A DNA stretch of 36,461 bases from Bacillota bacterium (GTDB lineage Bacteria > Bacillota > UBA4882 > UBA10575): contig JAAYIC010000037.1 in the NCBI GenBank assembly GCA_012735195.1, forward strand, positions 1 to 36,461, given 5' to 3'. Below the pieces are notes generated by a model. It worked only from the letters and a program-made list of their open reading frames with translations, did no database searches and was not told the origin of the DNA. The position numbers were made by a program, and so were the translations under genes. Numbering within the stretch: position 1 is the first letter of the stretch; every line of letters starts with the position of its first letter. Below are positions 11,742-36,461 of this stretch, piece after piece.

Positions 11742-11914
11742 AAAATCAACCCCCCAGGTGCTGGCAGGTTTCCCCAACCCGTTGTAATTGTCGCTGTTGC
11801 CAATTGGTCTTCCTTTTAATCAATGTAAATATTCGCCGTTTTCCTTCCCCTTCCTTTAAATCTTAGGATATTCTTTAAAAAAATCCCCAAAAAACGCCAT
11901 GGCGTACCACGGAA

Positions 11915-12066: not shown

Positions 12067-13698
12067 CTAGTCCGCTACTCTTTTCAGGCTGACATTATCC
12101 AGATAAACACGGCCGGTTTCATTGCCGAAGCTAAACACGACCCGCCCGGTCGGCAATGTTTCCTCCGCGGTGCCCAAAACATAAAACTCACGCTTTTCCT
12201 GGGTGACAAAGATCGAGGCGTTGCCGTATGACGGATAGTCTTTATATCCTCCCTTGTCTATCTCCGCCCCGAGTCCCGCAGAGAAATTGCGTGTGACGCC
12301 GGGGTCGGTCCATGCTTCAAAGCTGAGGAGATACTCGCGGCCTTTTTCCAATCGAATATTGCTTTGCAGCAGTTGAATATTCCAGCCCTCGGGGCCGGCA
12401 GTTATTACATTGACAACAAAAGCAAAATCGTTGTCAATTTTAGCTACATCCCACTCAGCCTGGTAGCGGTCTTTATCCCAAACCCCGAAAGTCCATCCTC
12501 CGGGGGCGGAGGGGCCGGCGCCGCCGGAGAAACCCCCGTTGGTCAATATCTCCTTGCCGGTTGCCGGCGGTTCCCCCAGTCTCAAGACGTCGGTGTTATC
12601 AGAGATAAGGGCGTTGACCAGTTCATCGTGGAATTTTTTCTCCTCCGGCTTATAGACCCCGAAGCCACTGCAAAACTCCCAGTAATGCCAAGAAAAACCC
12701 ATCTCTTCAAAGAGCCGGGCGCAAAACTCGGTCCAGTGCGCCCGGGAGTCCATATCGGCTTTTTTATAGGCGCCAAACTCACCGATATTGACCGGGATAT
12801 TATTGGTACAGGAGTAGTAGTAGACCGGGTAAAGCTCATCGATTAGTATCCGCTTATCAAAGAAACTCCCGTTCCAGCGGGTTCCCAACCAGGCATAGGG
12901 GTCGGAACCGCTGACCCAGTCAGCGCCCTGGTGGGTAAATTGAAAAGGACTGTAGAAATGGACGGTCAGGATCAAGTTCTCGTCGCCGGGGAATTCCAGT
13001 TTGGAAAGGCCTCCAACCCCGCCCCACTCGGCGGTCCCGATCATCACCATCCGGTTGGGGTTCGTCTCTCTAATCACCGCCAGGGCTTCCTTAAGCAGTT
13101 GATTCCAGAGTTCAGCAGTCAGCCCATTGTGGGGTTCATTTAAGATCTCAAATACCAGATCTTCCGGGTAACCTTGGTAACGCGCCGCCACCTGTTCCCA
13201 CATGGCCAAGAACCTGTCCCACTCCCCAAGGGGATTTGTGAAGATCTCGTCATAATGGTGGAAATTGATGATCGCGCATAAATCATTCTCCAGTGCTTGC
13301 CGGATCGCCCAGTCTACATGATCTTCAAAAAACTTCTGGTCAATTGTGTAAGGAGCGCCGGTTTGGGCGTAAGCCGACCATCTGATGGGAATCCGTACCG
13401 AAGAGAAGCCTTTTTCTTTGATCATGCTGAAATATTCCTCTTTAAGAACAACTTCCCACTCGCCAATGGCCGGCGCCTCCAAAGCGTTACCCAGGTTAAT
13501 ACCGCGACCCAATTTTTTGTTGAACTCCGCCGCCGGGCCCGACGGCTTGTCTAGCAGGGGTGCGCTCCAAGGGGGAGTCGTTGGGTAGGTCCTCTCATTC
13601 TTTGGCCGGTAACGGCAGGCCGGCAGAAAGAGCAGGACCAGTAAGAGTAAAAAAACGGCTGCATGCGCCCGTACGTATGTCTTCTTTCTCTTCATCAT
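12067..13698 (-). CDS. GH5 endoglucanase-type lipoprotein with C-terminal carbohydrate-binding module
   Basis: 543 residues; GGAGGT lies 7 bases before the first of two adjacent ATG codons. The signal peptide ends in lipobox FLPAC (Cys28), so the enzyme is probably lipid-anchored. A Pro/Ser linker follows, then a GH5 barrel: GRGINLGNALEAP, VRIPIRWSAY, FHHYDE, acid/base Glu188 in ILNEPH, and nucleophile Glu307 in NIGEFGAY. The C-terminal beta-sandwich (TNGGFSGG to VYLDNVSLKRV) resembles CBM4/9. It is closely similar along its full length to the neighbouring GH5 gene, with small insertions around SGSDPYAWLG and in the CBM, so the pair arose by tandem duplication. Substrate specificity cannot be read from the sequence; beta-1,4-glucan is most likely. 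Confidence 0.92.
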   Translation of the reverse strand: MMKRKKTYVRAHAAVFLLLLVLLFLPACRYRPKNERTYPTTPPWSAPLLDKPSGPAAEFNKKLGRGINLGNALEAPAIGEWEVVLKEEYFSMIKEKGFSSVRIPIRWSAYAQTGAPYTIDQKFFEDHVDWAIRQALENDLCAIINFHHYDEIFTNPLGEWDRFLAMWEQVAARYQGYPEDLVFEILNEPHNGLTAELWNQLLKEALAVIRETNPNRMVMIGTAEWGGVGGLSKLEFPGDENLILTVHFYSPFQFTHQGADWVSGSDPYAWLGTRWNGSFFDKRILIDELYPVYYYSCTNNIPVNIGEFGAYKKADMDSRAHWTEFCARLFEEMGFSWHYWEFCSGFGVYKPEEKKFHDELVNALISDNTDVLRLGEPPATGKEILTNGGFSGGAGPSAPGGWTFGVWDKDRYQAEWDVAKIDNDFAFVVNVITAGPEGWNIQLLQSNIRLEKGREYLLSFEAWTDPGVTRNFSAGLGAEIDKGGYKDYPSYGNASIFVTQEKREFYVLGTAEETLPTGRVVFSFGNETGRVYLDNVSLKRVAD

Positions 13699-15007: not shown

Positions 15008-16933
15008 GTGGATAGAAAGGTCTTTGAAGATTTAATCAGGAAAGACCGGGAAAAAAAGGCGTACCCCGATTTTTCCGGGACTTTCCTCGACTACCTGGAA
15101 CTCGTGAAGAAGGACCCCGGCCGCGTCAAACTGGCCCACCAGCGTATGTACGACATCATTATGGAACAAGGCGCCGAAGCGATCAGGACGGAAGAATACC
15201 CCCGCTTAAAGAGGATCTATGGTAACCAGATCATCAAAAAATACAAGTTTTTCGAAGATTTCTATGGGATTGACGAGACCATCATGAAGATCGTCCGCTA
15301 TTTTCATTCCGCAGCCATGATGGGCGAAGAGTCCCGCCAAGTGTTGTACCTGGTCGGGCCGGTCGGCGCCGGAAAATCCTCCATCATGGAGGCATTGAAG
15401 CGCGGTTTGGAAATGAGCCCCCCCATTTTTGCCTTGCAGGGTTGTCCGATGCATGAGGAGCCCCTGCATTTGATCCCCAAACACCTGCGGGAGAAATTTG
15501 CCAAATTACTGGGTGTGCATATTGAGGGCGACCTCTGCCCCGTCTGCCGTTACCGCTTGAAAGTCGAGTACGGAGGGGAATATGAACGTTTTCCCGTGGA
15601 AATTCTCGATTTTTCCGTCCGGAACCGGGTAGGGGTCGGGGTGGTGCCACCGGTTGACCCAAACAATCAGGATACTTCGGTCCTCATCGGTTCGGTGGAT
15701 ATCTCCAAAATGGATCTTTACCCTGAAGACGACCCGCGGGTCTTCTCCTTAAATGGCGCATTTAACGTGGGGAACCGGGGGCTTGTCGAGTTTATTGAGG
15801 TCTTTAAGAACGAAACCGAGTACCTGCACGCCATGATCACAGCCACGCAGGAAAAAGCCATTCCTTCCCCGGGCAAGGGACCGATGATCTATTTTGACGG
15901 CATCATTCTTGCCCACTCCAATGAGGCAGAATGGAACAAGTTCAAATCCGACCATACCAACGAAGCAATTTTGGACCGCATCGTCAAGGTTGAAGTTCCC
16001 TATTGCTTGGAGTTAAACGAGGAAGTCAAGATCTACAAAAAAATCCTCCGCCAGAGCCGGTTTTCCATGCATATCGCCCCGCACACCCTGGAGATCGCCG
16101 CGATGTTCGCCATCTTGACTAGACTTACGCCTTCCAGCAAAGTCGACCCGGTGACCAAATTAAGGATCTACAACGGTGAAGAGATTATCGAAAAAGGGAT
16201 GGTGAAAAAGGTTGATATCTTTGAGTTGCGGGAGGAAGCGCCCAGGGAAGGGATGACCGGCATCTCCACCCGCTTCATTGTCAAAGCGATTGACCGTGCC
16301 TTGTCGGAATCGGAGAACAGTTGTATCAACCCCATCAGCATCCTGGAAAGCCTGATCAAGGAGACTAAAGACCTTTCCATCGGTGAGGATGAACGCCGCC
16401 GGTATCTGGGTTTTCTCCAAAACACTTTGAAAAAGGAATACCACCGGATCCTGGAAAAAGAGGTCACCAAAGCCTTCATCCACGGCTTTACTGAACAGGC
16501 CGAGGACCTCTTCAACAACTACCTGGACCATGCCGAGGCCTTTGTCAACAAGACAAGGATTAAAGACCGGAACACCGGCGAAGAGCTGGAACCGGATGAA
16601 AAATTCCTGGCTTCCATTGAGGAACAGATCGGGATTACCGGCTCTGCGGCCAAAGGTTTCCGCCAGGATGTCACCGCCTACATGTTTTATGTCCTGCGCA
16701 GCGGCGGCAGATTGAACTACCGGAGCTACGAGCCGTTGAAAGAGGCGATCGAAGAAAAACTCACCAGTTCGGTTAAGGAGTTGTCGCGGGTAATCACCAG
16801 AGCCAAAGTGCGGGATAAAGAACAAAGTGAAAAGCTCAACGCCATGGTGGCGGAGATGAAGAAGAACGGTTACTGTGACCACTGTTGCAACGTGGTCCTG
16901 AAATACGCCGCCAACAACCTCTGGAAGGATTAG
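15008..16933 (+). CDS. prkA: PrkA family serine protein kinase / AAA+ protein
   Basis: 641 residues from GTG, with GAGGAGG 8-9 bases upstream; close to the usual 630-640 aa. An N-terminal AAA+ domain carries Walker A GPVGAGKSS (Lys123). The family is described as a serine kinase and, in B. subtilis, as an ATP-dependent protease-like protein needed for efficient sporulation. Features include CPVCRYRL near 177-180 and a Cys-rich tail CDHCC near 624, suggesting bound metal (inference). It is followed after 8 bases by yhbH and then spoVR, the conserved cluster (yeaG-yeaH-ycgB in Escherichia coli) linked to sporulation and starvation survival. Confidence 0.95.
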   Translation: MDRKVFEDLIRKDREKKAYPDFSGTFLDYLELVKKDPGRVKLAHQRMYDIIMEQGAEAIRTEEYPRLKRIYGNQIIKKYKFFEDFYGIDETIMKIVRYFHSAAMMGEESRQVLYLVGPVGAGKSSIMEALKRGLEMSPPIFALQGCPMHEEPLHLIPKHLREKFAKLLGVHIEGDLCPVCRYRLKVEYGGEYERFPVEILDFSVRNRVGVGVVPPVDPNNQDTSVLIGSVDISKMDLYPEDDPRVFSLNGAFNVGNRGLVEFIEVFKNETEYLHAMITATQEKAIPSPGKGPMIYFDGIILAHSNEAEWNKFKSDHTNEAILDRIVKVEVPYCLELNEEVKIYKKILRQSRFSMHIAPHTLEIAAMFAILTRLTPSSKVDPVTKLRIYNGEEIIEKGMVKKVDIFELREEAPREGMTGISTRFIVKAIDRALSESENSCINPISILESLIKETKDLSIGEDERRRYLGFLQNTLKKEYHRILEKEVTKAFIHGFTEQAEDLFNNYLDHAEAFVNKTRIKDRNTGEELEPDEKFLASIEEQIGITGSAAKGFRQDVTAYMFYVLRSGGRLNYRSYEPLKEAIEEKLTSSVKELSRVITRAKVRDKEQSEKLNAMVAEMKKNGYCDHCCNVVLKYAANNLWKD

Positions 16934-16941
16934 GTGATAAG

Positions 16942-18108
16942 ATGGCAGTTTTCCGCGAATGCAACAGCGGGGGAAAGGACCGTTCGGCCGAAGACCGGCG
17001 GCGCCACCGCCAGTTGGTGGAGAAGGCGATCAAGAAAAACCTCCATGAAATCGTGGCTGAAGAGAGTATAATCGGGCAAAACAAAGACAAAAAGATCAAA
17101 ATCCCGATCCGGGGTTTAAAAGAATATCAGTTTATTTACGGCAGGAACCATGGGGGTGTCGGCACGGGAACCGGCAAGGAAAAACGGGGCGATATTATCG
17201 CCAGGGATCTGATCAGCCACGGGCCGGGGCAAAGTGGCGCCGGGACGGAGGAAGGCGAGGAGATCTACGAAACGGAGATCACCATTGAAGACCTGATCAA
17301 CTATATCTTTGACGACCTCAACCTCCCCTACTTGGAAAGAAAGAAACTCTCGCAAGCGGCAACGGTGGTCAACCAAAAACGCCTGGGTTACCGGACGAAA
17401 GGCATTCCGCCCCGCCTGGCAAAAAAGCGCTCGGTCATGGAGAAGATCAAACGCCGGCAGAGCCGGCGCCGGACGGATCCGGACTTTGCAAGGGACGAGC
17501 GGTTTCCGTTTCATGAGGAAGACCTCAGATACCGCTTTATCTGTGAAGAAAAACGGCACCAGACCAATGCCGTTGTCTTCTGTATCATGGACACTTCGGG
17601 TTCCATGGACCATACCAAAAAATATCTGGCCCGCAGTTTCTATTTCCTGCTCTACCAGTACCTACGTTTAAAATATACCGAAGTGGAAGTGGTATTTGTC
17701 GCCCATACCACCACCGCCCGGGAAGTCAGGGAAGAAGAGTTTTTCCACCGGGTTGAATCGGGCGGCACTTTCATCAGCAGCGGCTACCGGAAGGCCTTGG
17801 AGATCATTGAAGAACGGTACAACCCGGCGGTCTGGAATATCTACGCCTTTCACACCAGTGACGGGGATAACTGGAGCGAAGACAATGAGCAGGCCCTGGC
17901 CGCCGCCAAAGAACTCTGCCGGGTTTGTAACCTCTTTGGCTACGGCGAGATCGACCCGGACGATTTTCGCATAACGAGCCCGATCAGCCGGTTCTTCCAG
18001 GAATCCCCGGCGGAAAAGAACTTTGCCATGGTCAGAATCACCGATAAAGAAGACCTCTTTCCCGCCATGAAGAAACTGCTCACTCTGGAAGAAAGGCTGG
18101 AGGAGTGA
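16942..18108 (+). CDS. yhbH: YhbH/YeaH family protein (DUF444), VWA-like
   Basis: 388 residues from the ATG after TAGGTGATAAG; an in-frame extension overlapping prkA exists but lacks a ribosome-binding site, and B. subtilis YhbH is of similar length. The family hallmark is the long basic N-terminus (DRRRHRQLVEKAI), the Gly-rich GGVGTGTGKEKRGD stretch, and a von Willebrand A-like domain with a MIDAS-type DTSGSMD (Asp217, Ser219, Ser221). Other family features are ESGGTFISSGYRKALEII and HTSDGDNW. The partner genes are prkA (8 bases upstream) and spoVR. It is needed for normal sporulation in Bacillus; its biochemical role is not known. Confidence 0.94.
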   Translation: MAVFRECNSGGKDRSAEDRRRHRQLVEKAIKKNLHEIVAEESIIGQNKDKKIKIPIRGLKEYQFIYGRNHGGVGTGTGKEKRGDIIARDLISHGPGQSGAGTEEGEEIYETEITIEDLINYIFDDLNLPYLERKKLSQAATVVNQKRLGYRTKGIPPRLAKKRSVMEKIKRRQSRRRTDPDFARDERFPFHEEDLRYRFICEEKRHQTNAVVFCIMDTSGSMDHTKKYLARSFYFLLYQYLRLKYTEVEVVFVAHTTTAREVREEEFFHRVESGGTFISSGYRKALEIIEERYNPAVWNIYAFHTSDGDNWSEDNEQALAAAKELCRVCNLFGYGEIDPDDFRITSPISRFFQESPAEKNFAMVRITDKEDLFPAMKKLLTLEERLEE

Positions 18109-18118
18109 ACTGCGCACC

Positions 18119-18171
18119 CGTGTGCACGCGTAAGCATGCACGCGGTACGTGTACACACGTAAGCGTGCACC
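18119..18171. repeat. Direct-repeat dimer with palindromic cores between yhbH and spoVR
   Basis: Two 24-base units (18119-18142 and 18148-18171) differ at four positions and are separated by CGGTA. Each contains CGTAAGC, and together they form inverted repeats such as TACGTGT-AC-ACACGTA and GTGCACGC...GCGTGCAC. The element lies inside the operon, upstream of the spoVR ribosome-binding site. Confidence 0.7.
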
Positions 18172-18205
18172 TTGCTGTCTTCCACCGGGAAAAGGAGTTG
18201 GTAAA

Positions 18206-19594
18206 ATGGCCGATTATACCTTGGCGGAACTGGCCGCCTGGGGTGAGAGAATCGAAGAGTTGGCCAGGGAGGAAGGGCTGAACTTCTACCCGCAAGAATT
18301 CGAACTCTGTAATTATGAGGATATGCTCTGTTATCAAGCATATACCGGCATGCCTTCCCACTACCCCCATTGGAGCTTTGGCAAGGCCTACGAGAAGCTG
18401 AAAACCCTGTACAAGTATAATATAAGTGGATTACCTTATGAGATGGTGATCAACGCCAATCCCTGTATAGCCTATCTCATGAAGGAAAACAGCCTGCTCT
18501 TGCAGATCCTGACCATGGCCCATGTCTACGGGCATAATGATTTTTTCCGCAACAACCGCCTTTTTACCGCCGGGACCCGGGCGGAATTGACGGTCGAGAC
18601 CTTCAAAAACCACGCCCGCCGGGTTCGCGAGTACGCCGGCGACCCCTCAATCGGTTATGAACGGGTGGAACAACTCCTCAACGCCGCCCACGCCCTGCGT
18701 TTCCAGACCAACCGCGTGGTGGGAGAAGACCGTCTTTCTTATGAAGAATACTACCGGAGAAAGTACCGGTCCGAACAGGAAAGAACCCCGGACCATCCCC
18801 TGCTGGAGGAAGCGCGCGCACCGGGAGATACCAACGGGACAGCCGGGCGGAAACGCCGGATCCCCCCGCAGCCGGAAGAAGACATCCTCTGGTTCATCAC
18901 AGAATACGGCGACCTTGAAGAGTGGGAAAAAGATGTTATTAACATTGTCCGGGAAGAGACCGCCTATTTTCTACCCCAGATCGAAACCAAGATTATGAAT
19001 GAAGGCTGGGCCAGCTTCTGGCATTATTTACTCCTCTGTCGCCTTGACCTCCCGGAGAAGTTGCGCTGGGAGTTTTATAGATACCATAACCAGGTAATCC
19101 GCCCCACCCCCGGCGGTCTCAACCCTTACCATATAGGATACGTTATCTTCAAATACCTCTATGAACAGCAGGGCAAAGAAAAGATCTTTGAAGCCCGGGA
19201 GGTTGAAAAAGACCAGTCCTTTCTCCGCCGCTATCTGAACTTGGAAATATGTAAGGAGCTGGAGCTCTTCGAGTACATGAAAAAAAGAGACGAATACATC
19301 GTCAAAGAGATCGCCGATGAAGAAGGCTGGAAATCCATTCGCAGCCAGTTGGTGAAGACCACCGGTCTTGGCGCCATCCCCGTCATCCGGATCGTGGAGT
19401 ACCGCCCCCTTGACCACCACCTTCTGCTGGAACACGAATACGACGGCCGCGACCTGGAGATGAACTACACCACTGAGACCCTGCGTTATTGCGCCGAGCT
19501 CTGGAAGGGGAAAGTAACCCTGAAAACCAGGATCAATAAGGAGGAACGGATCATCCACTGCGATGAAAAATCCAACCTCTCGATCCTTTTATAA
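18206..19594 (+). CDS. spoVR: SpoVR family protein
   Basis: 462 residues from ATG with AAAGGAG 8 bases upstream; an in-frame extension to 18149 reads through repeats and is rejected. Length matches B. subtilis SpoVR (468 aa), which is involved in spore cortex formation. Recognisable features are the N-terminal ELAAWGERIEELAREEGLNFYPQEFE, the strongly conserved MPSHYPHWSFGKAYE, HVYGHNDFF, and the central TKIMNEGWASFWHY. His- and Glu-rich conserved motifs suggest a metal site (inference). It is the third gene of prkA-yhbH-spoVR, separated from yhbH by 97 bases that hold a palindromic repeat. Confidence 0.96.
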   Translation: MADYTLAELAAWGERIEELAREEGLNFYPQEFELCNYEDMLCYQAYTGMPSHYPHWSFGKAYEKLKTLYKYNISGLPYEMVINANPCIAYLMKENSLLLQILTMAHVYGHNDFFRNNRLFTAGTRAELTVETFKNHARRVREYAGDPSIGYERVEQLLNAAHALRFQTNRVVGEDRLSYEEYYRRKYRSEQERTPDHPLLEEARAPGDTNGTAGRKRRIPPQPEEDILWFITEYGDLEEWEKDVINIVREETAYFLPQIETKIMNEGWASFWHYLLLCRLDLPEKLRWEFYRYHNQVIRPTPGGLNPYHIGYVIFKYLYEQQGKEKIFEAREVEKDQSFLRRYLNLEICKELELFEYMKKRDEYIVKEIADEEGWKSIRSQLVKTTGLGAIPVIRIVEYRPLDHHLLLEHEYDGRDLEMNYTTETLRYCAELWKGKVTLKTRINKEERIIHCDEKSNLSILL

Positions 19595-19833: not shown

Positions 19834-20448
19834 TCAGTCTTTTTCTTCGATCACTTCCACCATTTCAATGATCCCGTCCAGCAGGCGGTTTATTTTCATC
19901 TTCAAACCGTCAAGCTCATATATCTCATCTTCACTAAGGCTTTTCTTGCTTTTCCTGGCGGCGTATACAACCAACCCGCCGAGGGTTTCGGCTACATCCG
20001 GAATATCCAACCCCATAATCTTGCGAACTTCTTTAACCGGCGTGGCGGCGCTGAGGATTATCCCCTCACTCGGCGCAATTCTGGAAACAAAAAGAAATTT
20101 CCTGGTTATGAAGAGGACTGCAATGGCGATTATCCCCAACAATAAACCCAGGGTGTTCTCTTTGGTAATAATCAATTTCCGGGCCATGGCAAAAAGCAAT
20201 ACTTCGATAATACTGCCCGGGGTATGGCGTAAAAGCATCTTAATGAACTCAATTGCGATAACTAGAGTCATAGCATAGCCGAGAAAATCCTGGAAAAACT
20301 CCATATTCCGCGCGTTCAAATAGACATCATACAAACCCCGGATCAATCCGATGGAGCCGATAACAACGGCGATCATGATAATCAAGGAAATATAGATCTC
20401 GGCATGACTTGGAAAACGTGAAATAAGATAGCGTAAGCGAATCCTCAT
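19834..20448 (-). CDS. PsiE-like integral membrane protein
   Basis: 204 residues. At least three hydrophobic segments are visible: ISLIIMIAVVIGSIGLI, FLGYAMTLVIAIEFIKML, and LGLLLGIIAIAVLFITRKFLF. The arrangement (HAEIYISLIIMI... RHTPGSIIEVLLFAMARKLII) resembles the phosphate-starvation-inducible PsiE family. A soluble C-terminal part of about 85 residues ends in a charged helix. Function is unknown. The start is supported by AAGGGTGATT and by a putative promoter (20491-20519). It is monocistronic between spoVR (convergent) and the GH3 terminator. Confidence 0.65.
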   Translation of the reverse strand: MRIRLRYLISRFPSHAEIYISLIIMIAVVIGSIGLIRGLYDVYLNARNMEFFQDFLGYAMTLVIAIEFIKMLLRHTPGSIIEVLLFAMARKLIITKENTLGLLLGIIAIAVLFITRKFLFVSRIAPSEGIILSAATPVKEVRKIMGLDIPDVAETLGGLVVYAARKSKKSLSEDEIYELDGLKMKINRLLDGIIEMVEVIEEKD

Positions 20449-27669: not shown

Positions 27670-27763
27670 CCGCCCGGGCGCTTGCACGCGACTAAGCCTC
27701 TTTGAGTACAACCGGCTGGACTCGGCCGTTACCGCCGCCCGTACGCTTGCGAGCGACTAGTCC
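27670..27763. repeat. Direct repeats with palindromic core at the end of the exporter gene
   Basis: Two copies of a roughly 27-base element (about 27670-27697 and 27735-27762) share CGCCCG-x2-CGCTTGC-x2-GCGACTA. The core CGCTTGCGAGCG is nearly self-complementary. The second copy runs into the stop codon of the exporter gene. No T-run follows, so they are not simple terminators. Confidence 0.65.
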
Positions 27764-29562
27764 TCCCGGAACTGGCTTTCATAGAGCCGCCGGTAAAGCC
27801 CGTCTTTATTCGCCAGCAATTCATCGTGCTTTCCCTCTTCAACAATGCGCCCGCCGTCAATAACAACGATCCTGTCCGCCCGTTTAATGGTGGAAAGGCG
27901 GTGGGCGATGACAAAAGCGGTTCGACCCGCCAAAATCCGCTTTAGGGCGATCTGTATCGCCAACTCGGTCTGCGTATCAATACTGGAGGTCGCCTCGTCC
28001 AGGATGAGAATTTTCGGATCGCGGATCAACGCCCGGGCAAAGGCAAGCAACTGCCGTTGCCCCATGGAAAGACGACTGCCGCGCTCGTGTACTTGCGTGG
28101 CGTAACCGGCCGGCAGAGAAGTAATAAAATCATGGATCCCTACGGCTTTGGCGACGGCGATCACCTCGTCCCTGGTGGCATCCGCCTTACCGTACTTGAT
28201 ATTCTCCTCAATACTCCCGGAGAAGACGAAGTTGTCCTGTAGAACAATGGCAATCTGTTGCCTGTAATCTTTCAGGGCGATTTTTCGCAGATCGATCCCG
28301 TCGATCAGGACCTTGCCCCCGGTTATATCGTAAAAACGGCATAAAACATTGATCACCGTTGTTTTTCCCGCCCCGGTCGGCCCGACAAGGGCCACAGTTT
28401 CCCCGGGCCGTACATGCAGGTTGAAATCCTGAAGAACTTCATCGGAACCGCCATACTTAAAACTGACATTCCTGAATTCAACCTCTCCCCTGATTTCGCC
28501 GATGGCCACGGGATTGACCACCTCTTTTACTTGCGGCGCTATATCCATCAATTCAAAGATCCGTTCGCAGGAAGCCATGGCCGTGGCGATCATGTTAAAG
28601 AGGGTGCTCAGGTTCATAATGGGCTGAAAGAGGCGGTTGACATAGTTCATGAAGGCCGCCAACACCCCCAACGTCACCCAGTCGTAACGGAGCAAAAGAC
28701 CACCGATGGCCAAGATCAATACTGTGCCAAGGTAATTCAGGAAATTCACCGAGGACCAGAAAAAACCGGATAACGGCACCACTCTCTGGGCGGCTTGGAA
28801 GTGCTCATTATTAATCCCCGCGAACATCCGGTAATTTTCTTTCTCACGGCTAAAGGCCTTCGTGACCCGGATCCCGGAGATCGACTCATTCAAAGTGGCA
28901 TTGACATTCGCCAATTTCTTCCGGATCCGCCGCCACCCCATGAGCAGCCGGCGGCGGACATAAAATACCAGCCAGATGATGATTGGCAGGGTAATAAGGG
29001 TGACAAGGGTCAACCGCCAATCCATCCAGATCATAAAGGCAAAGACCCCAAAAAATGAGAGCGTGTCGGTGACGAGGGTGGTAATACCGGAGGAAAGCAG
29101 TTGCTGCAAAGAGTCGACATCATTGGTTACCCGGGTAATAAGGCGCCCGGCCTTTTGCTTGTCAAAAAAGCCCAAAGAGAGGCTTTGCAGATGATTGAAA
29201 AGCTCTTGACGCAAGTCAAAGATGGCGCTCTGGCCGGCCTTTGCCGCCAGGACGCCTTGCAGCAGCAGGGAAAGATACTGGCCGGCGATGGTCAAGGCCA
29301 AAAGGAGAATGACCCGCTGGAAACCGGCCATTTGCCGCGGGACGATATATTCATCAATACCAATCTTGATCAGATAAGGTCCCAACAGCGAAAAGAGGAT
29401 TCCTGCTATGGAGGAGAGGCAGACGACAACCACCGCTTTCCGGTAAGGCCGGAGGTACCTGGCCAGACGGGAAAGGTACTCCCGGTTAAAAGGCCTTCTG
29501 TAGTCTTCCTCTTCTTCCTGCAGGACCAGGCGGCGGTAGGTATTTATCTTCAGCGTTTCCAC
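27757..29562 (-). CDS. ABC exporter half-transporter, catalytically competent subunit
   Basis: 601 residues from GTG; the start overlaps the previous stop by one base (TAGTG). It has an N-terminal six-helix type IV exporter domain and a C-terminal ATPase. Walker A is VGPTGAGKTT (Lys400), Walker B ends LILDEATSSID with catalytic Glu523, and the switch His is in VIAHRLSTI. Its signature is LSMGQ instead of LSGGQ. The upstream partner has the complementary defect, so the pair fits heterodimeric exporters such as BmrCD and TM287/288 with one consensus and one degenerate ATP site. The substrate is unknown; drugs, lipids or peptides are possible. In a Bacillota this would sit in the inner membrane. 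Confidence 0.93.
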   Translation of the reverse strand: METLKINTYRRLVLQEEEEDYRRPFNREYLSRLARYLRPYRKAVVVVCLSSIAGILFSLLGPYLIKIGIDEYIVPRQMAGFQRVILLLALTIAGQYLSLLLQGVLAAKAGQSAIFDLRQELFNHLQSLSLGFFDKQKAGRLITRVTNDVDSLQQLLSSGITTLVTDTLSFFGVFAFMIWMDWRLTLVTLITLPIIIWLVFYVRRRLLMGWRRIRKKLANVNATLNESISGIRVTKAFSREKENYRMFAGINNEHFQAAQRVVPLSGFFWSSVNFLNYLGTVLILAIGGLLLRYDWVTLGVLAAFMNYVNRLFQPIMNLSTLFNMIATAMASCERIFELMDIAPQVKEVVNPVAIGEIRGEVEFRNVSFKYGGSDEVLQDFNLHVRPGETVALVGPTGAGKTTVINVLCRFYDITGGKVLIDGIDLRKIALKDYRQQIAIVLQDNFVFSGSIEENIKYGKADATRDEVIAVAKAVGIHDFITSLPAGYATQVHERGSRLSMGQRQLLAFARALIRDPKILILDEATSSIDTQTELAIQIALKRILAGRTAFVIAHRLSTIKRADRIVVIDGGRIVEEGKHDELLANKDGLYRRLYESQFRED

Positions 29563-31361
29563 TACAGACCCTCCAGTCCGCGCAGGAGTTCTTCTTCCGG
29601 TCTTTCCACCTGTTTTAACTGGATATCATGGAGAAGACGGTAATACTGGTTGGAATCATAAAGAAAACCATGTTCCCCTTCGGCCTTAATCTCCCCGCTG
29701 GAAAGAAGGATAATCCGGTCGGCCAGACGGGCCATGGACATCCGTTGGGTGACGATAATCGTGGTCCGGCCGGCCATCAATTCTTTCAACGACTCCTGGA
29801 TCTCTTTTTCGGTCTCCGGGTCCACGCTGGAGGTGGAATCGTCCAGGATCAAGATCTTTGGGTTGGTGAAAAGCGCCCGGGCAATTGCCACCCGTTGTTT
29901 TTGCCCGCCGGACAACCCCACCCCCCTTTCCCCAACAATGGTGTTATAATGTTCCGGCAGGCTGACGATGAAATCATGAATACGGGCTTTTTGTGCGGAG
30001 TTGATGATTGCCCGCGCACGTTCCGCCTCCGGGCCGGTCTCCACCGCGCCGAAGGCAATATTCTCCCCGATGGTGGTGGAGAAGAGAAAAGTCTCCTGGT
30101 CCACCAGGCCAATCTGGCGTCTTAATGAATCCAGGTCCCAATCGTTTAGATCGATGCCGTCCAGATAGATCTTGCCGGAGGTGGGCCGGAACAAACGGGG
30201 GATCAGATTAACCAGAGTGCTTTTTCCAGAACCGGTCAACCCGATTACCGCCACCTTTTCCCCGGGGTCGATCCGGAGGTTAATTTTCTCCAAAACAGCA
30301 ACGGTTCCCTCAGGATTGGTGTATTCAAAGGAAACATCTTTAAAACGGATCTCCCCCCGGATTACCCGGCGTACAGGTTTTACCGGGCGGGCCTCCTCCG
30401 GCGCCTGAAAAATCTCCAACAGACGCCGGGCCGAACCTTCCGCCTGTTTAACATGGCTTAAGGTTGGCGCCAGCATCCACATGGGCCAGCCCAAGAGTCC
30501 CAGATAGCTATTGAAAGCCATAAAAGAACCGATGGTAATCTCCCCGGCAGAGACCAACCACCCGCCCACGCCCAAAACGACTAGGGTGCCGGCGCCACTG
30601 AAAAGGATTAATAAAGGAAGCATGCGGGCGTTCAGGAGCGTTACCCGTAAATTGGCCCCGCGCAGCTTCCAGTTTTCTTCTCTAAACTTCTCAATCTCCT
30701 GTTCCTCAGTTGCAAAGGATTTCACCACCCGGATCCCGGTGATATTCTCCTGTAAAACCGCGGTCAAGCTCCCTGCCTGTTCCTGGCGGTCCTTGACCCC
30801 CTTTGCCGTTCTCCTGCTGAATCTGACCAAGGCCACGATGATTACGGGGAGAAAAGCCAAGACAATCAGGGCCATCTTCCAACTGGCCAGAAACATGAGG
30901 AGGATAACCGCCCCGATTGTTAAAGCGCAACTGAGGGCGTGGCTGAAAACAAAAGAAAAAAACATCTGCACCATTTGGACATCAAGGGTTAACCGGGACA
31001 TCAGATCACCCGTACGCATAGTCCCGTAATAGGAAAGCGGGGCTTTATGCAACTTCTCATACAGCGCATTCCGCAGATCGGCGGCGATCCGGTTGGCCGT
31101 CCCCTCATAATTGATGATCCCAAAACGTAGCACCGCCGCGCGGAGCAAACCCAGGAGCAGGATCCCGGCACACCAGGCCAGTAAGATAAGGAGGCCTTTT
31201 TCCTCTTTGATCCCGGGAAAGACTCGGTCAAAAATACCCTTAATAAACTGGGGAAACAGATAATTGAGGCCGTTTTGGACCAGGGTGAGAGTCACAGCCA
31301 GACCAAATGCTTTTTTATAAGGCGCCAGATAAGAAGATAAATGCCTGAAAATATAAAGCAT
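29562..31361 (-). CDS. ABC exporter half-transporter, degenerate-site subunit
   Basis: 599 residues from ATG with GGGGTTGA 6 bases upstream. It has a six-helix membrane domain, then an ATPase with Walker A IGLTGSGKST (Lys380) and a canonical signature LSGGQKQRVAIARAL. Walker B reads LILDDSTSSVD, so Asp508 replaces the catalytic Glu, and the switch region reads VTQRMS with Gln for His. These changes define the non-hydrolysing site of heterodimeric exporters. It is co-translated with the downstream partner and transcribed divergently from the TetR gene, which makes control by that regulator possible. Confidence 0.93.
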   Translation of the reverse strand: MLYIFRHLSSYLAPYKKAFGLAVTLTLVQNGLNYLFPQFIKGIFDRVFPGIKEEKGLLILLAWCAGILLLGLLRAAVLRFGIINYEGTANRIAADLRNALYEKLHKAPLSYYGTMRTGDLMSRLTLDVQMVQMFFSFVFSHALSCALTIGAVILLMFLASWKMALIVLAFLPVIIVALVRFSRRTAKGVKDRQEQAGSLTAVLQENITGIRVVKSFATEEQEIEKFREENWKLRGANLRVTLLNARMLPLLILFSGAGTLVVLGVGGWLVSAGEITIGSFMAFNSYLGLLGWPMWMLAPTLSHVKQAEGSARRLLEIFQAPEEARPVKPVRRVIRGEIRFKDVSFEYTNPEGTVAVLEKINLRIDPGEKVAVIGLTGSGKSTLVNLIPRLFRPTSGKIYLDGIDLNDWDLDSLRRQIGLVDQETFLFSTTIGENIAFGAVETGPEAERARAIINSAQKARIHDFIVSLPEHYNTIVGERGVGLSGGQKQRVAIARALFTNPKILILDDSTSSVDPETEKEIQESLKELMAGRTTIIVTQRMSMARLADRIILLSSGEIKAEGEHGFLYDSNQYYRLLHDIQLKQVERPEEELLRGLEGL

Positions 31362-31492: not shown

Positions 31493-31521
31493 TTGACAAG
31501 ATTACCCGGGTGTGTTATTTT
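31493..31521 (+). promoter_or_regulatory. Sigma-A type promoter of the tetR gene
   Basis: TTGACA (31493-31498) and TATTTT (31516-31521) are separated by exactly 17 bases. The predicted start near 31528 lies just before the operator-like palindrome at 31541. Confidence 0.8.
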
Positions 31522-31540
31522 GGACTAAAGAACTATTTTG

Positions 31541-31554
31541 TTCGATTGGTCGAA
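31541..31554 (+). promoter_or_regulatory. TetR operator candidate, site 1
   Basis: TTCGATTGGTCGAA is an inverted repeat of TTCGA arms around TTGG, centred about 20 bases downstream of the predicted transcription start. The sequence CGATTGGTC recurs in the gap before the MMPL gene, which supports a shared regulator. Confidence 0.7.
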
Positions 31555-31605
31555 GCCAGTGTCTCTCCACATTAGCCTTGAGACCGCTGAAGGGGGTCAA
31601 AAACA

Positions 31606-32199
31606 ATGGACCACTCCAACCCGGCAGAGATAAATACCCGGCAAAACATTATCGAAGCCGCCAGGGAAATTTTTGCCCGTTATGGCTTCCGCAAAGCGAC
31701 AATGGATGAGATTGCCCAGGCGGCGCGAAAAGCCAAAAGCTCTCTTTATCATTACTTCAAAAGCAAAGAAGAGGTCTTCCGGGAAGTTGTCGAACAGGAA
31801 GCGGCAGAGGTCAAAGGCGAAATCTCCCGGGCGGTGGCTGCGGAAAAAACCCCCCAGGAAAAATTCCGTGCTTATGTGATCACGAGGATGGCGGCGTTCA
31901 AACGGGTGGCCAACCTTTTCCACGCCTTTAAAGACGAATACTTGGAGAGCTACGGTTTTATTGAACGCTTGCGCGAGAATTATAACCGCTACGAGATTGA
32001 GACCATTACCGGTATTCTCAAAGAAGGGCTGGAAAAAGGGGTCTTCGCCGTGAAGAACCTGGAACTGACGGCTTACGCCATTTTTACCGCGGCCAAAGGG
32101 TTGGAGTACTCCTGGGCGCTGGAACCGGACATAAAAAAAGTTGAGACCAATATCGACAGCCTGCTGGATATCCTTTTTCACGGCCTGGTCAGGAAGTAA
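31606..32199 (+). CDS. TetR/AcrR family transcriptional regulator
   Basis: 197 residues from ATG, with AGGGGGT upstream. The N-terminal TetR DNA-binding domain is clear: TRQNIIEAAREIFARYGFRKATMDEIAQAARKAKSSLYHYFKSKEEVF. The C-terminal ligand domain is diverse, as usual. It lies between divergent exporter genes and the downstream MMPL-LolA-DUF1302 genes. Operator-like repeats occur before itself and before the MMPL gene, so it probably represses both, sensing a hydrophobic compound or fatty-acyl ligand (inference). Confidence 0.94.
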   Translation: MDHSNPAEINTRQNIIEAAREIFARYGFRKATMDEIAQAARKAKSSLYHYFKSKEEVFREVVEQEAAEVKGEISRAVAAEKTPQEKFRAYVITRMAAFKRVANLFHAFKDEYLESYGFIERLRENYNRYEIETITGILKEGLEKGVFAVKNLELTAYAIFTAAKGLEYSWALEPDIKKVETNIDSLLDILFHGLVRK

Positions 32200-32210
32200 A
32201 TTTTTTTACC

Positions 32211-32239
32211 GACCATTCGAACAAAAGACTCGATTGGTC
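32211..32239 (+). promoter_or_regulatory. TetR operator candidate, site 2
   Basis: GACCATTCGA (32211-32220) and TCGATTGGTC (32230-32239) form an inverted repeat with one mismatch and a 9-base spacer. The right arm shares CGATTGGTC with site 1. It lies between the tetR stop and the MMPL start. No T-run follows, so it is not a tetR terminator. No clear promoter hexamers were found around it. Confidence 0.65.
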
Positions 32240-32244
32240 AGTTG

Positions 32245-32310
32245 TTCTGCCCCGCGCATTCTGCGCCGCATCTTTGCGCGCCTGCGCCTTGTCCCCATGA
32301 ACTGCGCGCC
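32245..32310. repeat. Degenerate GC-rich repeats upstream of the MMPL gene
   Basis: Short CGCGCATTCTG, CGCCGCATCTTTG and CGCGCCTGCGCCTTG segments follow one another, then CTGCGCGCC. They resemble in flavour the GC-rich palindromic repeats in other gaps of this window. Unit boundaries are not sharp. Confidence 0.4.
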
Positions 32311-32381
32311 ATCGCTAAGATCTATCCATACCGGATGACGCCGGTTCATGCAGAACCAATATTTTTGAAAGGAAGACCGTC

Positions 32382-34670
32382 ATGAAGAAACTGGCAAAAC
32401 TAATCATTGAAAAAAACCGGCTAGTTATTGTTGTATTTGCCCTTATCACCTTGTTTCTTGGCTTCTTCCTCCGGAACCTGAGGATCAACCCGGATATTCT
32501 CAGTTACTTCCCAAAAAATGACCCGGATGTCCAACTCCTCAACTACTTGGGCGAGGAATACGGTGGCAATTCGTTGGCCATGATCGTCCTGGAAACCGGG
32601 GAGATCTTCACCCCCGAAACCATTGCCGTTATCCATGAACTGACCACCCGCTTACAGTTGGAGCCGGGGGTTGCTTATGTGACCAGTCTCACCAATACGC
32701 TGGACATTAAAACCGACGAATACGGGTTTGAAATCGGACGGTTGGTCGATACGGCCAATTTGCCCCGCGATCCGGAGGCGTTGACCGCATTAAAGGAGTA
32801 CACCCTCTCCAAGGAGATGTTCCGTAACAACCTGGTCACAGAGGACGCCACCGCCACGCTCATCATCTGCCGGCTCCAAACCAACTCCGACCAGGTGGCA
32901 ACCTGCCGCCGTTTGCAAGAGATCGTTGCCGAAACAGCTCCGGCCATGAAAATCTATTACGGCGGGATCCCCTTCATGATCCTGGATTTGAATAATATGA
33001 TCACCGACGACCTGAAAGTTCTCATCCCCATGGTCAGCTTGGTGATCATCATCTTTTTATACCTCGGCTTCCGTAAATGGGAAGGAGTCTTTTTACCCCT
33101 GCTTGCGGTGGCGATAAGTCTCATCTGGACCCTTGGGGTCATGAGTCTCCTCAAAATTCCACTGTCGATTATCTCCAATGTCATCCCTGTGGTCCTGTTC
33201 GCAGTGGGAAATGCCTACACCATCCACGTGCTCAGTAGATTCAACGAGACCCGTGTTACCAGTACCAACGACGGCCTGGCCACTGCCTTGTATGAAGTCG
33301 GAACCCCGGTCTCCCTGGCCGGTTTAACCACGATCGCCGGTTTTATCTCCTTCATTTTCGGATCATACCTGGTAATGATCCAGGAATTCGGTGTTTTCGC
33401 CGCTCTGGGTGTCCTTTTCACCCTCTTCATCTCTCTCACCTTTATCCCGGCCCTCCTTGCCCTGAAAAGGAAGAAACCGGACCGGGAGTACAAAGAACAA
33501 GAGGAAACAAAAAACAGGGGTGTTACCGGGCGGATAACCCCGGGGATTGAAAAACTGGTCACAAAAAAGCCGAAAACCATTGTTTGGGTGGGTGTCCTCC
33601 TGACCATCCTTGCCCTCACGGGTATCCCCCGGATCAGCCGGCGGGTCAATCTGGTCGAATATTTCCAGCCGCAGACCGCGATTAGGCAGGCGGAAGCAAT
33701 TCTGGATGAAAAATTTGGCGGTTCCGGTATTATCCAAATTTTGGCCGAAGGAGATATTCAAGATCCCGCGGTTTTGCGGGAGATGGAAAAGATGGAGGAG
33801 TTCCTGCTTGCCCAGGACGGTATCCACAGCACCCAATCCGTTGTTAACCTGCTGAAAGAGCTTAACAACGCAATGGGCGAAGGAAAAGTGCTCCCGGATA
33901 CGAAAGGCAAGGTAATGAACCTCTGGTTCCTCCTGGAGGGCGAAGAGGTCATGACGCAGCTGGTCAATGCCGGGCGGACAGAAGCGGTTATTCAAGCGCG
34001 AATAGCCGGGAGTTTGGAGGGTTCACTCGCCCATCAGCTGGTCACCGCGATCAATGAATATACCGCCGGAATCAACCCGGAACTGGTCAAGTTCAGCCAG
34101 ACCGGGATGCCGGTCATCTACCGGAACCTGGATCTCTCCATCCTCAAGAGTCAATTCCAGAGTTTAATCTTTGCCGTGCTCCTGGTCTTCATCATCATGC
34201 TCTTCCTCCTTGGTTCACTGGCCGGCGGTTTACTCGGCCTGATCCCGATCCTTTTCACCCTGGCGCTGGTTTTTGGTTTCATGGGTTATGCCAAGATCCC
34301 CCTGGATATTGCCACCGTCCTCGTGGCCAGTGTCACCATTGGGATTGGCATTGATTATTCCATCCACTTTTTAAGCCGCTACCGCCAGGAACTGGCCGAT
34401 ACGCGCACGCAAAATCTGCCGGTAGAGACTGCGGTGCGAATCACCTTAAACACCACCGGCCGGGCAATCCTGATCAATGTCTTCACCGTGGCCTTCGGTT
34501 TCCTGAGCCTCGTCTTTAGCCAGCTTGTCCCCATCCAGCGTTTTGGGGTCCTGGTCTTCGTTACCATGCTGGGTTCCGGGTTTGGCGCCATCATTCTCCT
34601 CCCCGCGGTCTTGCTTTTCTCCGGCGCCCGGTCGCCAGCGGGAAAAATGGGAATAAAAAAACTGAGATGA
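32382..34670 (+). CDS. RND/MMPL superfamily transporter (HAE3 type)
   Basis: 762 residues from ATG with AAAGGAAG upstream. It has the duplicated architecture of MMPL/HAE3 proteins: TM1 (LVIVVFALITLFLGFFL), an extracytoplasmic domain with INPDILSYFPKNDP, a bundle of five helices, then the same pattern in the second half. The first bundle includes NVIPVVLFAVGNAYTIHVLSRF and the second has GIGIDYSIHFLSRYRQEL near residue 655. At about 760 aa it is shorter than tripartite RND pumps (about 1,030). Relatives move lipids or hydrophobic molecules. The LolA-like and DUF1302-like genes that follow suggest transfer across the periplasm to the outer membrane. Confidence 0.93.
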   Translation: MKKLAKLIIEKNRLVIVVFALITLFLGFFLRNLRINPDILSYFPKNDPDVQLLNYLGEEYGGNSLAMIVLETGEIFTPETIAVIHELTTRLQLEPGVAYVTSLTNTLDIKTDEYGFEIGRLVDTANLPRDPEALTALKEYTLSKEMFRNNLVTEDATATLIICRLQTNSDQVATCRRLQEIVAETAPAMKIYYGGIPFMILDLNNMITDDLKVLIPMVSLVIIIFLYLGFRKWEGVFLPLLAVAISLIWTLGVMSLLKIPLSIISNVIPVVLFAVGNAYTIHVLSRFNETRVTSTNDGLATALYEVGTPVSLAGLTTIAGFISFIFGSYLVMIQEFGVFAALGVLFTLFISLTFIPALLALKRKKPDREYKEQEETKNRGVTGRITPGIEKLVTKKPKTIVWVGVLLTILALTGIPRISRRVNLVEYFQPQTAIRQAEAILDEKFGGSGIIQILAEGDIQDPAVLREMEKMEEFLLAQDGIHSTQSVVNLLKELNNAMGEGKVLPDTKGKVMNLWFLLEGEEVMTQLVNAGRTEAVIQARIAGSLEGSLAHQLVTAINEYTAGINPELVKFSQTGMPVIYRNLDLSILKSQFQSLIFAVLLVFIIMLFLLGSLAGGLLGLIPILFTLALVFGFMGYAKIPLDIATVLVASVTIGIGIDYSIHFLSRYRQELADTRTQNLPVETAVRITLNTTGRAILINVFTVAFGFLSLVFSQLVPIQRFGVLVFVTMLGSGFGAIILLPAVLLFSGARSPAGKMGIKKLR

Positions 34671-34692
34671 ACAAATGAAAGGAGAGAGAAGA

Positions 34693-35442
34693 ATGAAAAA
34701 ATCCCTTTTCTACTTCGGGTTATTGCTCATCCTTCCCGGGTTGCTGTTTCCGGCGGCCGCTGCCGGGAAACTTACCGCCGGCCAAATCATGGAACGGCTG
34801 GACCAGACGGTCAGCGCCCCCCGGGACCAGGAAATTCACGTAAAACTGGTGATTACCGATGCCAAAGGGAATGAAAGCCATCGTGAGATGGTGATGATGC
34901 AGAAAGGAAGCGACCGGCGGATGGTAAAATTCACGGCCCCGCCGGAGCAAAGAGGGATCGCCTTTCTTTCCCTGCCCGGCGGCATGACCTATTTATACCT
35001 GCCGGCCTACCGGCAAACCCGGCGCATCGCCTCGCATGTCCGCAACCAGAAATTTGCCGGGACCGACTTTACCTATGAAGATATGGAAGCCCGGAAATAC
35101 AGTACTGACTGGGATGCGAAACTACTGGCGGAAGAAGGCGGTCTCTACCGCTTGGAGTTGACACCGAAGGAAGAGACGGTAACCGACTACGGGCGGTTAA
35201 TCGTAGAGGTCAGGGCCGATATCTTCTTCCCGGTCAAGATTGAATTCTTTGACAAGGCCAACCGGCCGCGCAAAGTAATGGTCCAGGAGAAACTGGAACA
35301 GATTAACGGTTACTGGATAGCGCGGGAATCTGAGATGAAGGATTTACAGGCCGGTACTTCGTCAAAGATGTTCTTTACCGAAGTGAAATTCGACAGCGGC
35401 CTTGCGGATGATATCTTTACCGAACGTTACCTGACCCGATGA
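34693..35442 (+). CDS. LolA-like outer membrane lipoprotein-sorting protein (PF17131 type)
   Basis: 249 residues from the second in-frame ATG, which has AAAGGAGAGAG upstream; the ATG at 34675 precedes that site. The signal peptide is KKSLFYFGLLLILPGLLFPAAAAG. The mature protein resembles LolA/VioE-fold proteins linked to MMPL genes: LTAGQIMERLDQTV, MVKFTAPPEQRGIAFLSLP, MTYLYLPAYRQTRRIA, FAGTDFTYEDME, YRLELTPK, IEFFDKANRPRKVM. It probably binds a lipid or acyl chain in the periplasm and hands it between the MMPL pump and the outer membrane (inference). Its start lies 22 bases after the pump stop, and 14 bases separate its own stop from the next gene. Confidence 0.88.
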   Translation: MKKSLFYFGLLLILPGLLFPAAAAGKLTAGQIMERLDQTVSAPRDQEIHVKLVITDAKGNESHREMVMMQKGSDRRMVKFTAPPEQRGIAFLSLPGGMTYLYLPAYRQTRRIASHVRNQKFAGTDFTYEDMEARKYSTDWDAKLLAEEGGLYRLELTPKEETVTDYGRLIVEVRADIFFPVKIEFFDKANRPRKVMVQEKLEQINGYWIARESEMKDLQAGTSSKMFFTEVKFDSGLADDIFTERYLTR

Positions 35443-35456
35443 AAGGAGAGGAGAAA

Positions 35457-36461
35457 ATGAGACGGTTAACAGTTGCGTTGCTGCTGGTTCCGTTTTTGGC
35501 GGTCATGGCCGCCGGAACCTACAGTACGTGCGCACACGCGCAATTGGCTTGGCAGGGCAGTTTTGCCGGCGACTACCGTTTGCGTTTACAAGACGGGCAA
35601 GAATTCTCCCATGCCGCCCAACGTCTTACTCTTCAGCCCGAGGCCCGGCTGGGAGCGGCCAAATTTACCGGCGAATTCTGGCTCAATCTCCAGGGACGAC
35701 CGGCAGTGGCTGGTCCTTCCGGGCTCGGTGCTTACGAGAGCATTTTCCCCTGGAACCTCGAAGTTCGCGAGGCCTATGTGGAGATCTACGATTTTCCCCT
35801 GGACCGGATGGATTTCCGGGCCGGCCGCCAATTGATCCCCTGGGGCACAGGGGATCTGGTCAGCCCCACCGACAATATAAACCCCCAGGACCTCGCGGAT
35901 TTTAAGGATTTCGGCCGGCGCCTGGGTTCCGACGCTTTCCAGTTCACCTGGTACCCGGGGTCTTTGACGGTGAGTGCCGTCCTTGTTCCAGTCTTCACCC
36001 CGGCCCGCCTCCCCACCGGTTGGACTGGGCTGTTTTTACCGGCGGAATTTGCCGGCCTGAGTGAAGATAAGATCAAACTCAACCTCCCGGCCGCCGCTTT
36101 GCAGGAATCCTCCTTCGGCGTAAAACTGGCCGGGCGGATCGGCGCGTACGATCTCTCCATAAGCTATCTGGACGGCCGGTACGACCTGCCGGCAGCCAAA
36201 GAGGTCCAGGGAAAAATTGAGCAGATCACCAATCCCGCGAACCCCTTGGAAAATCTAATCCTGGAGGAGATTTCGCGTTTCTTCCCCCGCCGTCGCGTCC
36301 TGGGGTTTGATCTCGCCGGCGAATTGGGCAATGGTGGGATTTGGGCTGAGGCGGCGGTCTTTTTCCCGGAAAAAGTGACCACAGTGGCAAAGATCGCCCT
36401 GCCTGACCCATTCCCCGACCAAACCCAGGAAACCGTAGTTTTGGATAAAGCCTACACCAAA
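35457..36461 (+). CDS. DUF1302-like outer-membrane beta-barrel protein (partial)
   Basis: At least 335 codons, open to the right edge, from ATG with AAAGGAGAGGAG upstream. The signal peptide is RRLTVALLLVPFLAVMAAG, with probable cleavage after AHA. The mature sequence is made of amphipathic strands (FAGDYRLRLQD, LTLQPEARLGAAKFTGEFWLNLQG). The block VREAYVEIYDFPLDRMDFRAG, followed by RQLIPWGTGDLVSPTDNINPQDL, is characteristic of DUF1302 and related outer-membrane channel proteins. It forms an operon with the MMPL and LolA-like genes, so it is a candidate outer-membrane partner. The C-terminal strands are outside the window. Confidence 0.85.
   Translation, partial: MRRLTVALLLVPFLAVMAAGTYSTCAHAQLAWQGSFAGDYRLRLQDGQEFSHAAQRLTLQPEARLGAAKFTGEFWLNLQGRPAVAGPSGLGAYESIFPWNLEVREAYVEIYDFPLDRMDFRAGRQLIPWGTGDLVSPTDNINPQDLADFKDFGRRLGSDAFQFTWYPGSLTVSAVLVPVFTPARLPTGWTGLFLPAEFAGLSEDKIKLNLPAAALQESSFGVKLAGRIGAYDLSISYLDGRYDLPAAKEVQGKIEQITNPANPLENLILEEISRFFPRRRVLGFDLAGELGNGGIWAEAAVFFPEKVTTVAKIALPDPFPDQTQETVVLDKAYTK

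Follow-up and report, generated by a model that had tools for sequence, protein, structure and literature searches.

Few bacterial machines are known that carry lipids from the inner membrane to the outer one, and the route taken by lipids other than lipopolysaccharide (LPS) is largely open. In Porphyromonas gingivalis, the region PG1175-1181 encodes a TetR regulator, an MMPL protein, a lipoprotein-sorting protein and a hypothetical protein, and under iron limitation its expression climbs 13- to 136-fold (PMC10434189). Four adjacent genes that match it rank first among those repressed when hemin is in excess (PMC10470040), and PG1181-PG1177 has been called a putative transport system (PMC13227078). 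The structure of P. gingivalis LolA3, which lacks the conserved Arg and shows no more than a weak interaction with LolB, has been solved (PMC13103446). In Thalassolituus oleivorans, TOL_3187 joins an MMPL and a LolA-like part in one protein and the next gene, TOL_3188, is porin-like; long-chain alkane induces the pair, which was interpreted as belonging to alkane uptake, and the description of the pair mentions no TetR (PMC6304351). Here we describe a gene set of this kind, encoding a TetR-family repressor, an MMPL pump, a LolA-like carrier and an outer-membrane beta-barrel, in the last ~5 kb of a Bacillota contig (C71) whose entire 36,461 bases constitute the window. We favour, with moderate confidence, the reading that it is a TetR-repressed three-part envelope transporter by which a lipid, or a hydrophobic molecule resembling one, passes from inner to outer membrane. 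The pieces PG1178-1181, LolA3 and TOL_3187/3188 are known, but we found no paper characterising MMPL, LolA-like protein and barrel as one system in a search that covered open-access journals and a minority of preprints.

Operon structure and encoded proteins

The four genes are all open, lie on the plus strand and are close-packed. The repressor (31606-32199, 197 amino acids (aa)) matches Pfam TetR_N (E 8.5e-17), the RND inner-membrane pump (32382-34670, 762 aa) matches Pfam MMPL (E 6.9e-58), and the periplasmic carrier (34675-35442, 255 aa) matches PF17131 (E 4.5e-50). The DUF1302-related barrel gene (35439-36461) is incomplete, as the contig end stops its frame after the first 341 of ~460 residues. 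The pump and carrier genes are 4 nt apart, and the carrier and barrel frames share 4 nt (ATGA). Frames, Pfam matches and spacing all agree with the first-pass annotation of this DNA, which had read a tightly spaced TetR, 762-aa MMPL, LolA-like and barrel series.

The pump belongs to PF03176 (196.6 bits against a cut-off of 20.5). Its match to the HAE3 transporter subfamily TIGR00921 is near full-length (13-745) and lies below the curated cut-off (295.8 against 351.9 bits), and the scores for the HpnN and MmpL3 equivalogs are low (135 against 752 and 30 against 1400, respectively). Asp658-Tyr659 in transmembrane helix (TM) 10 is kept, and the TM4 Asp is replaced by Ala278, which in the alignment to MmpL4 stands where that protein has Asp. 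The pattern is general, with DY in TM10 in 73/73 readable members and AY in TM4 in 71/73, and the two-site proton relay of the MmpL3 type (Asp-Tyr in both TM4 and TM10) is absent. The nearest solved relatives are the siderophore exporters MmpL4/5. The pump shares the MMPL/RND fold and the TM10 Asp-Tyr with the MmpL3, MmpL4, MmpL5 and HpnN exporters, but differs from them in its 762-aa length, the TM4 Ala and its carrier and barrel partners. The unit is best seen as an MMPL-type export variant in which a soluble LolA-like protein serves as shuttle and the outer-membrane partner is a barrel of DUF1302 type.

In one genome (G006) the MMPL and LolA-like proteins form a single 1044-aa frame, the same fusion as TOL_3187 (PMC6304351). 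Because 12 membrane helices precede a retained signal sequence, the LolA part of this fusion would face the periplasm.

The carrier falls well within PF17131 (170.3 bits against a cut-off of 30). Both carrier and barrel open with Sec-type signal peptides, as read from the sequence; that of the carrier has no lipobox, and its likelier start is the ATG at 34693, as in the related locus L018. The AlphaFold model of the carrier (pLDDT 88) has P. gingivalis LolA3 as its top PDB match (9tp6, TM-score 0.79), followed by two LolA-superfamily structures and a DUF1329 protein, with classical LolA at lower scores. LolA3 being the nearest solved structure would link the window to the PG1181-PG1178 operon, which differs in being induced by iron/heme limitation and in being followed by ABC genes; LolA3 (PGN_0947) may be the LolA of that operon, and PG1178 its barrel. 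The gene set described here is a likely context for the orphan LolA3 structure and for this strongly heme-regulated operon.

Since LolA3, its nearest solved structure, pairs only weakly with LolB, the LolA-like fold is probably used here outside lipoprotein sorting. The operon shares the carrier fold with the Lol pathway (LolCDE-LolA-LolB), but its pump is of the RND rather than the ABC type and its outer-membrane partner is a barrel rather than LolB; no LolCDE or LolB is encoded at the operon. A specialised branch of lipoprotein sorting, with the MMPL protein replacing LolCDE and the barrel surface-exposing lipoproteins, would account for the LolA fold, and a second locus in the genome, where a LolA-like gene accompanies FtsX/MacB-type permeases and another candidate barrel, is consistent with it. 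However, the neighbour comparison finds no recurrent dedicated lipoprotein gene in the operon, LolA3 lacks the conserved Arg in addition to its weak pairing (PMC13103446), and deletion of lolA3 in Flavobacterium johnsoniae leaves gliding and secretion intact (PMC11885536). We regard such a branch as improbable and as the least likely of the readings considered.

The second locus (L032, 8107-14191 on contig C113 of the same genome) is an operon for a LolA-like protein, two FtsX/MacB-type permeases, an ATPase, a DUF3108 protein and a 346-aa candidate barrel with no Pfam hit, and forms an ABC-driven counterpart to the MMPL unit.

The barrel scores 21.0 bits against DUF1302 (PF06980) and a complete orthologue 22.2, both below the cut-off of 23.2. 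DUF1302 matches at E<=0.01 are found for the barrels of 27/30 diverse relatives, and on these matches the barrel is assigned to a family related to DUF1302. Complete orthologues in L019-L021 have ~460 aa and end in Phe, as do 65/65 uncut barrels of the locus set described below. The model of the L020 orthologue (462 aa, pLDDT 79.5) is a beta-rich barrel with ~20 predicted strands, and its best PDB matches are porins (TM-score 0.36-0.46), which support the fold class and point to no closer family; profile searches found no solved relative. The signal peptide, the many strands and the C-terminal aromatic residue of the orthologues mark the last gene as an outer-membrane beta-barrel, as first annotated. 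In L019 (15598-17490) and L021 (4068-6006), ExbB, ExbD and TonB genes lie immediately downstream of the barrel.

Like tripartite RND systems of the AcrAB-TolC type, the operon combines inner-membrane, periplasmic and outer-membrane partners under one TetR gene. It differs in having a soluble LolA-like protein in place of the HlyD-type adaptor and a single-chain barrel in place of the TolC trimer channel. Neither a HlyD-type adaptor nor a TolC-type channel was found among the operon proteins, which places it outside the AcrAB-TolC type.

Conservation across diderm phyla

A search of 84,980 species genomes by a single LolA motif, with neither MMPL nor barrel in the query, gave 80 named loci, 77 of which have a readable LolA frame. 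These are the 80 closest of several hundred matches, and the figures describe near relatives rather than all LolA-like proteins. An MMPL gene is beside, near or fused to LolA in 67/77 loci (5 cut), and a barrel is also present in 67/77 (5 cut), with median gaps of 12.5 and 14.5 nt in the MMPL/LolA/barrel set. The loci span >15 phyla and come from Aminicenantes, Spirochaetales, Stahlbacteria/WOR-3, Zixibacteria, Latescibacterota, Bacteroidota, Mcinerneyibacteriota, KSB1, Calditrichota, FCPU426, Eisenbacteria, TA06, Cloacimonadota, Myxococcota/Deltaproteobacteria, Neomarinimicrobiota, Atribacterota and Bacillota. The first-pass annotation had placed similar gene sets in Proteobacteria, a range that is too narrow.

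Within the class of the window genome, 11/29 genomes have the MMPL protein at E<=1e-60. The order TetR-MMPL-LolA-barrel was read in G011, G012, G015, G016 and G002, and in G008 once its TetR frame had been checked by hand, showing that gene order is kept in the class as well as in the named loci. In the MMPL tree the family-level group of the window forms a single clade (support 100), and other members of the class are scattered among other phyla. These several placements rule out a simple vertical history, and the scattered tree fits repeated transfer or loss among diderms.

Neighbouring genes and possible cargo

All-against-all comparison of 420 neighbours of the named loci identified recurrent families of patatin (15 loci), GT2 (10), PlsC (8) and radical SAM proteins (8), and more rarely FabH (6), GNAT (5) and serine-palmitoyltransferase (SPT)-like proteins (3). 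Acyl-lipid enzymes, among them the patatin, PlsC, FabH, GNAT and SPT-like families, lie in a contiguous same-strand block with LolA in 39/45 cases against 188/375 for other neighbours (Fisher p 1e-6), in a comparison where the acyl-lipid families were picked post hoc and related loci are not independent; same-strand acyl-lipid enzymes occur in 25 loci. Because the neighbours include these recurrent enzymes, a lipid is the likeliest cargo. The first-pass proposal of lipid or hydrophobic transport from inner to outer membrane gains support for its lipid part, with the direction and the substrate itself as predictions.

The same neighbours bear on the opposite direction of transport. The barrel could admit external hydrophobic compounds such as alkanes or fatty acids, with the LolA-like protein carrying them inward and the MMPL protein passing them to the inner membrane. 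TOL_3187 and TOL_3188 rise strongly on n-C28 alkane (PMC6304351), and AupAB is an inner/outer membrane protein pair serving alkane uptake, though AupA is FadL-like (PMC5989066). However, the neighbour enzymes of the relatives (PlsC, FabH, SPT-like) are biosynthetic, and the sugar ABC transporter, GH5 and GH3 genes in the window suggest that the host is saccharolytic and does not degrade alkanes. To our knowledge, the MMPL proteins of known function are exporters. Uptake is therefore very doubtful. AupA/AupB was also considered as the same system and set aside, as AupA is FadL-like and the report mentions no LolA or RND protein (PMC5989066).

In L035, L036 and L051, LolA or the barrel has an SPT-like gene next to it. 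The L035 gene has serine palmitoyltransferase as its best match, at 545 bits against a cut-off of 640, and the SPT-like gene of the window genome scores 562 bits. Genes of this kind (548-569 bits, below 640) occur in 11/11 MMPL-bearing genomes of the class against 8/18 without MMPL, a difference confounded by family. A sphingolipid-like cargo is only a possibility. For bacterial sphingolipids, no flippase or transporter had been identified according to the authors of one study (PMC11087976), and our literature search found no paper joining sphingolipid with MMPL. It is conceivable, if quite unlikely, that in many diderm phyla the operon supplies the transporter still missing between inner and outer membrane for a class of acyl lipids other than LPS, sphingolipid-like or otherwise.

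In the window genome, the SPT-like gene and one for a ketosphinganine-reductase-like short-chain dehydrogenase/reductase (SDR) are arranged tail to tail (L154, 1267-3301 on contig C66). KdsR is the third-best match of this SDR, and the pair may represent sphingolipid base synthesis.

Probable regulation by the TetR repressor

The tetR gene has a sigma-70-type promoter (TTGACA-N17-TATTTT, 31493-31521, plus strand, 10/12 matches), and the start at 31493 given to the unit in the first annotation is its TTGACA. This hexamer and the -10 region are kept in aligned relatives. The putative operator 1, a 29-bp imperfect palindrome GACTAAAGAACTATTTTGTTCGATTGGTC (31523-31551, plus strand), begins 2 bp past the -10 box. 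Operator 2 (32211-32247, plus strand), in the tetR-MMPL interval, consists of two overlapping 29-bp sites (32211-32239 and 32219-32247).

The operator matrix was built only from the 29-bp palindromic sites of L022, L024 and L028, which belong to other genera. In the window its top match is 31523 (26.3), followed by 32219 (22.7) and 32211 (20.3), with the next match elsewhere at 7.2; the best score over 100 shuffles was 21.6. Across the genome, no sites other than 31523 and 32219 match the consensus with <=2 mismatches. A reversed-pattern control gave similar numbers of weak matches, so that weak sites elsewhere are meaningless. The TetR orthologue occupies the same position in L018-L020, L022-L024 and L028, and was found by hand in L021. 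TetR stands directly before MMPL in 34 named loci and nearby in 4 more. Repression and autoregulation by TetR through the predicted operators are well supported by these comparisons, in agreement with the control proposed at first, since an operator learnt from other genera recurs shortly before tetR in the window and in the tetR-MMPL interval.

In L022, a 481-aa NAD-dependent epimerase-like SDR (12138-13583) precedes tetR, with operator-like sites at 13698 and 13823, and L023 is alike. Strong operator-like sites lie upstream of this SDR in both loci, and the enzyme may make or modify the substrate.

A TetR gene with a QacR-sized operator is also what would be expected if the unit were an efflux system for a lipophilic small molecule, such as a toxic compound, a pigment or a siderophore- or porphyrin-like molecule, sensed by TetR as in drug pumps. 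The siderophore exporters MmpL4/5 as closest solved relatives and the induction of the P. gingivalis operon by heme/iron limitation are in line with this, and flexirubin pigment clusters contain LolA2/LolB2 (PMC11885536). Efflux is nevertheless unlikely, since neither a HlyD-type adaptor nor a TolC-type channel is part of the operon, the fold of the carrier provides a lipid groove and the recurrent neighbours are acyl-lipid enzymes.

Proposed mechanism

From the gene set, its conservation, the predicted folds, the operator-like sites and the diderm host, we infer how the lipid transporter that we favour would be energised, which way it would work, how its carrier would pass on the cargo and what class of substrate it would take; the mechanism is drawn from anatomy and context. 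TetR would leave both operators in response to an inducer, which may be the substrate itself or one of its precursors. The MMPL protein, proton-driven via its lone TM10 Asp-Tyr, would then pick up the substrate at the outer leaflet of the inner membrane and load it onto the soluble LolA-like carrier, which would shield the acyl chains across the periplasm. The carrier would deliver to the DUF1302-type barrel, and the substrate would be inserted in, or passed across, the outer membrane.

Several points weigh against this transporter. The related pair in alkane degraders has been assigned to alkane uptake (PMC6304351), and the matching P. gingivalis operon responds to iron/heme limitation, a cue with no evident tie to lipids (PMC10434189, PMC10470040). 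No lipid enzyme lies within the operon in the window's own genus, and the acyl-lipid association carries the post hoc choice and the dependence between loci noted above. The window MMPL and barrel also fall below the curated TIGR00921 and DUF1302 cut-offs. As a compact operon that is found in >15 phyla, fused in places, linked to lipid enzymes and equipped with its own operator, it is a direct, testable candidate for lipid transport.

Host genome and other genes in the window

The source genome is a Bacillota metagenome-assembled genome that is 94% complete and has 2.13 Mb spread over 131 contigs. It contains two copies each of Omp85 and Spo0A, together with LpxC and SpoIVA, and the host is therefore an LPS diderm bearing sporulation genes, in line with what had looked at first like a spore-forming diderm. 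Among 398 genomes of the phylum, Omp85 is present in 71/72 genomes with a LolA-like match, although the p value of 5e-53 is overstated as the genomes are not independent, and some LolA-like genes among the 72 may belong to ABC-type loci. Another 30 Omp85-positive genomes have no LolA-like match. LolA-like proteins in the phylum are essentially confined to outer-membrane bearers.

The operon had also been described as near sporulation genes, which was probably a reading of the PrkA-DUF444-SpoVR cassette at 15008-19594. This cassette is known from non-sporulating proteobacteria too, so the evidence for sporulation within the window is weak; the genome itself does carry Spo0A and SpoIVA.

Positions 27757-31361 hold a pair of neighbouring genes for MsbA-like ABC exporter half-transporters, which run divergently from the operon. 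They were considered as part of it and rejected, as the pair adjoins the operon in L018 and L020 and not in L019 or L021-L024; the adjacency is kept only within the genus. Besides the sugar ABC transporter and GH3 genes, the window has, on the minus strand, a tandem pair of GH5 cellulase-like genes that closely resemble each other (10209-11777 and 12067-13698), the latter with a carbohydrate-binding domain by Pfam. In a small protein encoded at 19834-20448, a PsiE-like membrane part is joined with a CorC/HlyC transporter-associated domain whose score falls just below the cut-off.
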